Source: an uncultured Sulfurovum sp. (GTDB lineage: Bacteria > Campylobacterota > Campylobacteria > Campylobacterales > Sulfurovaceae). From it: a stretch of 64,000 nt of DNA. Each line of letters begins with the position of its first letter. Position 1 is the first letter of the stretch. Shown one piece after another: positions 17,135-17,983 of the stretch. Made by a program: the position numbers and the translations under genes. The notes below the pieces were generated by a model that was not told where the DNA came from, did not search any database, and saw nothing but the letters and a program-made list of their open reading frames with translations. Where the stretch lies: contig CACVAP010000053.1 in assembly GCA_902727895.1 (NCBI GenBank), positions 1 to 64,000 of the forward strand, written 5' to 3'.

Positions 17135-17310
17135 TTATTTGTATAAGCTATATTACTACACGTAATATACACGTGAAAAATGTATAATTCCACCATGACT
17201 AACATAGCTAAAAATATAAGCTAACTAAGCTTATATCAATTTCATTATGATTTCCCTAAAATTAATGATTTTCTTCTTTCCTTTTATTATCTATGTTAGG
17301 ATTTAATCCC
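17135..17310. repeat. Copy 1 of tandem ~180-bp structured noncoding element
   Basis: Head TTATTTGTATAAGCTATATTACTACACGTAATATACAC; stem CTAACATAG/CTATGTTAG; inner hairpin ATATAAGCT-AACTA-AGCTTATAT. Confidence 0.65.
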
Positions 17311-17358
17311 AAGTTGGATTGATATTACCCTTAAAGTTATAATCCCTTATTTTAATAA

Positions 17359-17543
17359 TTATTTGTATAAACTATATTACTACACATAATGTACACAGAA
17401 AGTTAGTATACTACATGAAGCCTAACACGAGAAGGTGTTTTTTTAAGCTAGTGAAGTTCACTAGGCTTATGATGTAAATAATACTCCCTGTATACATTAT
17501 ATTCTTCCCTCCCCTTTTACTTCTTGTGTTAGGACTAAATTCC
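17359..17543. repeat. Copy 2 of tandem ~180-bp structured noncoding element
   Basis: Head 35/38 identical to copy 1; stem CCTAACACGAGAAG/CTTCTTGTGTTAGG; inner hairpin AAGCTAGTGAA/TTCACTAGGCTT. Confidence 0.65.
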
Positions 17544-17983
17544 TAACCTTGTGTATTTATCATCATGATTGAGAAACCATTAATATAATTCCAAAAACTT
17601 TGTAAGTCTTCGTCTTTAACAGATGATTCTAATGGCTTGAGTGCTTGTTCAAAACAAGTAAGCCAATGTAACCTTCCCTCAGCAGTAATGGTAAAAGGCA
17701 TATGTCTCCCACGCATTCTTGGCATTCCATGTCTTTGATTAAAATAAGCAGGACCACCACAAATTTGAATGAAAAAATCAGCAGAAGTTTGCGCAGCTAT
17801 TTCCATACCTTCAGCATCTTCAGGAGGAAAAATAGAGCGAATGGCACTTTTGTCTAAGCAGGCATAAAATCTAGAGAGTAAATCACGGATTCCTTGTTCT
17901 CCAACTTGAGGAAAAAATGTTAAGTTTGGTTTCTGTACAGGTGGGATGTAGTTTGCATTGTGTGCAATAATTGAATAGTTCAT
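17543..17983 (-). CDS. Truncated hemoglobin-family (bacterial globin) protein
   Basis: GGPAYFNQRHGMPRMRGRHMPFTITAEGRLHWLTCFEQAL globin E/F-G helix pattern. Confidence 0.85.
   Translation of the reverse strand: MNYSIIAHNANYIPPVQKPNLTFFPQVGEQGIRDLLSRFYACLDKSAIRSIFPPEDAEGMEIAAQTSADFFIQICGGPAYFNQRHGMPRMRGRHMPFTITAEGRLHWLTCFEQALKPLESSVKDEDLQSFWNYINGFSIMMINTQG

Follow-up and report, generated by a model that had tools for sequence, protein, structure and literature searches.

Two tandem members of a predicted small-RNA family, new to Rfam, in an uncultured Sulfurovum

Introduction

Bacterial small RNAs (sRNAs) may occur as tandem siblings that carry motifs complementary to ribosome-binding sites. 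NmsRA and NmsRB of Neisseria meningitidis are tandem sRNAs of near-identical structure that lie in one intergenic region with 70% identity; each has its own start and two predicted anti-Shine-Dalgarno motifs, and they act in trans on mRNAs (PMC5362039). In the alpha-r14 (NfeR1) and cuckoo/CcsR sRNAs of Alphaproteobacteria the anti-Shine-Dalgarno motif CCUCCUCCC stays unpaired while the stems change, with CcsR1-4 forming an array of related RNAs and NfeR1 being wired to the NtrBC two-component system (PMC10746234, PMC10253847). In Campylobacter jejuni, the 98-nt RNA CJnc230 is RpoN/FlgRS-dependent and has two stem-loops flanking 12 nt with CCUU (PMC11187230). A literature search, with subscription journals mostly outside its coverage, found no sRNA study of Sulfurovum, a vent genus that is mostly uncultured.

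In this work we analyze a pair of diverged noncoding elements in a 64,000-nucleotide stretch of DNA from an uncultured Sulfurovum (hereafter, the window). An earlier note had proposed that both elements conserve RNA structure, and had left the choice between twin sRNAs on the plus strand and a minus-strand leader. Our results indicate that both copies are members of a predicted small-RNA family that is new to Rfam, providing Sulfurovum with a covariation-supported family of putative regulatory RNAs. The duplicated pair constitutes a natural experiment, in which sibling, presumably anti-Shine-Dalgarno, sRNAs diverge in their seeds and keep their fold.

The Sulfurovum pair resembles NmsRA/NmsRB in its tandem arrangement, its paired anti-Shine-Dalgarno motifs and the separate start predicted for each copy. 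The Neisseria RNAs differ in sequence and phylum and are RelA-dependent, in place of a two-component-type operator; a long closing stem comparable to that of the Sulfurovum RNA is not described in the available text of that report (PMC5362039). As in alpha-r14 and cuckoo, a CCUCC-type motif is kept unpaired while stems change. However, alpha-r14 has three hairpins with the same motif in each, whereas the Sulfurovum RNA combines two different C-rich motifs with one long closing stem; likewise, CcsR RNAs are processed from an RpoHI/RpoHII-driven precursor with ccaF1, whereas each Sulfurovum copy has its own promoter. In place of the identical CCUCCUCCC repeated in the hairpin loops of cuckoo/alpha-r14 members, we find a CUCC(C/U) loop and a CUUCCUCCC tract. 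CJnc230, the expression of which is two-component-dependent, shares with the Sulfurovum RNA its origin in the Campylobacterota and a putative single-stranded anti-Shine-Dalgarno motif (PMC11187230). With sequence homology compared via Rfam only, the likeness to these three systems appears to be one in way of working, not membership.

Results and discussion

Organization of the two window copies

The heads of the two copies (17135-17172 and 17359-17396) are identical at 35 of 38 positions, as previously noted; their similarity reaches 60 nt at 82%, and a second similar block (17280-17310 and 17513-17543) shows 74% identity. Copy 1 (17135-17306, plus strand) is organized as a complete predicted sRNA gene, with operator, promoter and RNA body. 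The direct repeat CTACAC-N5-ATACAC (17156-17172), an operator found at 19 of 19 loci, is followed at exactly 10 nt by the -10 box TATAAT (17183-17188) and then by the RNA, with a covariance-model extent of 17194-17306 and ends deduced from promoter and fold. Folding and covariation define its closing stem P1, formed by CTAACATAG (17199-17207) and CTATGTTAG (17291-17299), while folding places hairpin P2 at 17214-17236, hairpin P3, with TTTCCCT in its loop, at 17242-17268, and the open pyrimidine tract TTTCTTCTTTCCTTTT at 17270-17285.

Copy 2 (17359-17547, plus strand) is likewise organized as a complete predicted sRNA gene, with an additional 3' hairpin. Its operator CTACAC-N5-GTACAC (17380-17396) lies exactly 10 nt from the -10 box TATACT (17407-17412), and the covariance-model extent of the RNA is 17417-17539. 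Covariation and folding again support P1, pairing CCTAACACGAGAAG (17421-17434) with CTTCTTGTGTTAGG (17520-17533) through one G:U on the plus strand, and folding yields P2 (17446-17467), P3 (17468-17501, with CTCCC at 17484-17488 in the loop) and the open anti-Shine-Dalgarno tract CTTCCCTCCCC (17504-17514). The long-range stems and inner (P2) hairpins are those that the earlier note had described. The interleaved pairing it had proposed for copy 2 (TAATGTACACAG/CTGTATACATTA) spans the promoter operator, so that its 5' arm falls outside the RNA.

A terminator-like hairpin in copy 2, GTTAGGACTAAATTCCTAAC (17528-17547, plus strand), overlaps the P1 3' arm and the opposing globin stop codon. The search for such hairpins returned 1, against 0.2 in shuffles; the T run behind it is weak and the 3' end of the RNA is uncertain. 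Because this hairpin uses the P1 3' arm, the two pairings are mutually exclusive. In one relative (G014, L037) one and the same G/C swap is present in both arms of P1 and in the downstream arm, which hints at a switch or at a link between folding and termination.

Distribution of the RNA family

Covariance-model searches place the family at 19 loci, distributed over 18 of 34 Sulfurovum genomes, many of the genomes compared being drafts; a nucleotide search also found clear relatives within the genus. Besides the two window copies there are 17 loci, with 16 accepted by score and one weak match accepted by eye. An alignment of eleven sequences gave a consensus. At E <= 2e-9 the covariance model R1 recovers 18 loci, spread over 17 genomes of the genus, scoring copy 1 at 79 bits (E 3.8e-12) and copy 2 at 98.4 bits (E 3.6e-16). 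The remaining locus, in G008, is a weak R1 match (E 0.22) kept by eye, with promoter and stem as in the other loci. Only the window genome has two copies; every other carrier has one.

Among 299 genomes of the order R1 gave no credible match, and the matches of a second model (18 sequences) in 120 genomes of the family were confined to the genus of the window. Weak matches in other genera (L066, L067) and in the same genus (L054-L056, L062), devoid of both promoter and C-rich core, were discarded as noise. The element reaches the gathering cut-off of no family in Rfam 15, a result that covers alpha-r14 and 6S if Rfam includes them; its best sub-threshold matches are to implausible viral or eukaryotic families, and Rfam scans of the element and of a second RNA discussed below (RNA2) returned, above threshold, only nearby tRNAs. 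Both searches had been suggested in the earlier note: no family emerged at gathering level, and the covariance model uncovered homologs with covariation at the 19 loci.

A constant promoter with a predicted operator

All 19 loci share a plus-strand plan in which the direct repeat NTACAC-N5-NTACAC is followed at exactly 10 nt by a TAT..T -10 box and the RNA, with the first conserved RNA bases 3-5 nt after the hexamer. One locus has TAAAC in the second half of the repeat, and the promoter of G008, missed by the script pattern, was matched by eye. This layout is constant at 19 of 19 loci while the neighboring genes vary, as befits an sRNA unit with its own promoter, and a promoter for each copy is well supported at the sequence level. 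The conserved ATTTGTATAA of the head had been read as an extended -10; the -10 boxes instead lie downstream (17183-17188 and 17407-17412), and the head is mainly a predicted regulator operator. Activators of the OmpR/PhoB type use direct repeats of 11-bp period that immediately precede the -10 box. The repeat observed here has a period of about 11 bp, adjoins the -10 box and is common to other promoters, in agreement with an OmpR/PhoB-type regulon.

Covariation supports a conserved RNA structure

The RNA plan common to the 19 loci comprises the closing stem P1, a variable hairpin P2, hairpin P3 with a CUCC(C/U) loop motif, the open pyrimidine tract CUUCCUCCC and, last, the 3' arm of P1. Two-sided changes affect 6 of 12 pairs of the outer stem both in an early alignment of eleven sequences and in a MAFFT alignment of 19, where P1 shows 95% standard pairs. 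Doubly changed cells number 17 in the whole structure, every one of them within P1, and 4.0 +- 1.5 in shuffles; such counts are inflated by the kinship of the sequences. When the partner is shifted by one to three columns, pairing falls from 93% to 31-44%, and the P1 co-changes are plain by eye (CCTAAGATAG/CTATCTTAGG, CCTAACACAAG/CTTGTGTTAGG, CCTAACATGA/TCATGTTAGG). P3 is conserved in the alignment, not covarying, and both window copies keep the hairpin despite changed arms. Compared with dinucleotide shuffles, the window copies fold with z-scores of -2.8 and -3.3 on the plus strand and of -1.9 and -1.3 on the minus strand. The selection on RNA structure proposed from the two copies is hence confirmed by P1 covariation over 19 homologs.

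Unpaired C-rich motifs and the proposed function

The best-conserved part of the alignment is the C-rich core, not a stem. Both C-rich motifs are predicted to be unpaired, with probabilities of 0.92 and 0.95 versus 0.47 over all positions. AGGA is found in 48% of the start regions in the window and GGAG in 30%, the corresponding values for a control region being 2% and 0%, so that CUCC and UUCCUCC complement ribosome-binding sites in use. Since these accessible seeds are unpaired and complementary to the host Shine-Dalgarno sequence, we infer that the sRNA acts in trans through short seeds and represses translation. Apart from RNA2 and matches of the sRNA to itself, long-complement searches (AGGGAGGAAGAATATAATGAA, TTTAGGGAGGTTTCATT) yielded no start region recurring across genomes, and in one of these searches the backwards control was about equally frequent; the absence of a long conserved mRNA complement fits short seeds.

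The interpretation that we consider probable is that the copies encode regulator-controlled sibling sRNAs that would block translation through Shine-Dalgarno pairing. Each copy would be a complete small-RNA gene transcribed from the plus strand, with an OmpR-type response regulator presumably binding NTACAC-N5-NTACAC beside the -10 box and switching transcription on. The resulting RNA of about 115-130 nt would be closed by P1 into a rod in which two C-rich stretches stay single-stranded, the P3 loop carrying CUCCC and the segment ahead of the P1 3' arm carrying CUUCC(C)UCCC. These stretches, complementary to the Shine-Dalgarno AGGAG, would most likely pair in trans with several mRNAs at their ribosome-binding sites, reducing their translation under the condition that the regulator senses. 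This condition is probably an envelope, thiol-redox or metal stress, given that the operator is also found ahead of dsbD and of Cus-like efflux genes. In the window genome this system would comprise two diverged siblings. Copy 1 (17269-17285) has lost most of its C-rich tract (TTTCTTCTTTCC), with promoter and fold kept, so the sibling RNAs probably differ in their targets.

The plus-strand RNA might instead bind a protein or ligand, not mRNAs, through P3 and the pyrimidine tract. The strong conservation of the core would suit such a role, as would the lack of a conserved long mRNA complement in our searches, but the conserved residues are exactly the unpaired Shine-Dalgarno complements and no known protein motif was recognized; we deem this explanation unlikely.

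A second structured RNA beside rodA

The complement search also brought to light RNA2, a second conserved, GGA-rich structured noncoding RNA beside rodA (G000:C31:37799-37934, minus strand; L139, L112; relatives L140-L164), recognizable in over 20 of the 34 genus genomes. Its closing stem is AUCUUAAGUA(G)/(C)UACUUAAGAU; one loop bears GGAG, and AAAAGGAGGA forms a conserved tract. The presence of GGA in loops recalls CsrA-binding RNAs.

RNA2 could be conceived as the partner of the sRNA, which would act as its sponge or target through CUUCCUCCUUUU, complementary to AAAAGGAGGAAG. RNA2 ranks first among the non-self complements in four of the RNA-bearing genomes, the duplexes of G010 (-28.2 kcal/mol) and window copy 1 (-24.7 kcal/mol) reach z-scores of -4.8 and -2.9 against shuffled RNA2, and AUGAUUUUCUUC in copy 1 exactly complements the RNA2 of the window genome. 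Yet 12 of 16 pairs, with z-scores between -1.8 and +0.6, perform no better than composition explains, and the GGAGG core of RNA2 is retained where the sRNA is absent, which argues for another role of RNA2. As a general mechanism, the pairing was set aside for its weakness in most genomes. We thus treat RNA2 as a separate finding with a possible partner role, a partnership being improbable as an account of the sRNA. Slightly less probable still is a composite scheme, in which an anti-Shine-Dalgarno sRNA of vent Sulfurovum, controlled by a two-component system, would be buffered by a purine-rich RNA of similar closed-rod plan, with GGA both in a loop and in an open tract, the duplicated copy 1 of the window genome having been retuned to this partner.

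Strand of the element

Our preferred interpretation as regulator-controlled sRNAs requires the plus strand. Read on this strand, P1 cells contain 12 G:U versus 5 C:A, or 10 versus 2 without row G025, the 3' arm of which is aligned one base off. The mean folding z-score across homologs is -4.4 on the plus strand and -2.3 on the minus strand; reverse-strand R1 matches were excluded as strand evidence, the model having been built from plus-strand sequences. The constancy of the promoter, the excess of G:U over C:A and the folding strength uphold the earlier suggestion of twin sRNAs on the plus strand, as regards their predicted transcription.

The opposite reading takes the element for a 5' leader, or an attenuator, on the minus strand of the DUF4178/aminopropyltransferase operon, and draws on its position between the globin gene and this operon in the window and several relatives. 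Instead of a constant position 5' of one gene, however, we find a different downstream gene in G001, G003, G008, G012, G013, G024, G030, G032 and G033. Because the neighboring genes vary between genomes we reject the leader, which we rate as very unlikely: promoter, G:U asymmetry and fold all favor the plus strand, and the possible small minus-strand reading frames differ or are broken between homologs. A minus-strand small peptide (MNLGRFH in some homologs) was discarded, with neither frame nor neighbors conserved, and nothing in the analysis points to polyamines. A miniature mobile element with terminal stems (MITE) would account for the inverted-repeat ends and the two tandem copies, but is hardly credible given a single place in the window genome with no dispersed copies, one copy per genome elsewhere, and conservation that resides in promoter and interior.

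Regulon and candidate regulators

Allowing one mismatch, the operator occurs at few sites per genome, usually the sRNA and, in eight genomes, the dsbD promoter (G000:C48:24350-24366, minus strand, L093 and L126; L082, L084, L087, L088 and L090). The latter suggests a putative thiol-redox or metal branch of the regulon. In G015 and G028 the operator lies between or beside two-component genes and a Cus-like YtkA/TolC/RND efflux operon. OmpR-type two-component genes adjoin a YtkA/TolC/membrane-fusion/RND efflux operon in L124 (G028), L125 (G015) and L215 (window genome, where the cluster was typed by Pfam), with the operator inside the two-component/efflux cluster in G028 and G015. With the operator fixed, direct tests become feasible for the regulator, the signal it senses and the predicted regulon of sRNA, dsbD and metal-efflux genes.

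The regulator of the Cus-like operon is missing from six RNA-positive genomes and was rejected as sole regulator. Another OmpR-type regulator, related to this one and accompanied by its kinase, is present in 16 of 18 RNA-positive and 0 of 16 RNA-negative genomes (76-100% identity), the RNA occurring without it in the drafts G003 and G030. This association reflects mostly shared ancestry at the clade level, since two changes on a RodA tree of 24 genomes explain the presence of the RNA. Inside the positive clade, G011 and G022 lack both RNA and regulator, amounting to the one independent agreement; in G003, which belongs to that subclade, the RNA is present and the regulator absent. Synteny and co-occurrence designate L214:4944-5597 (plus strand) and L215:5824-6477 (minus strand) as the candidate regulators.
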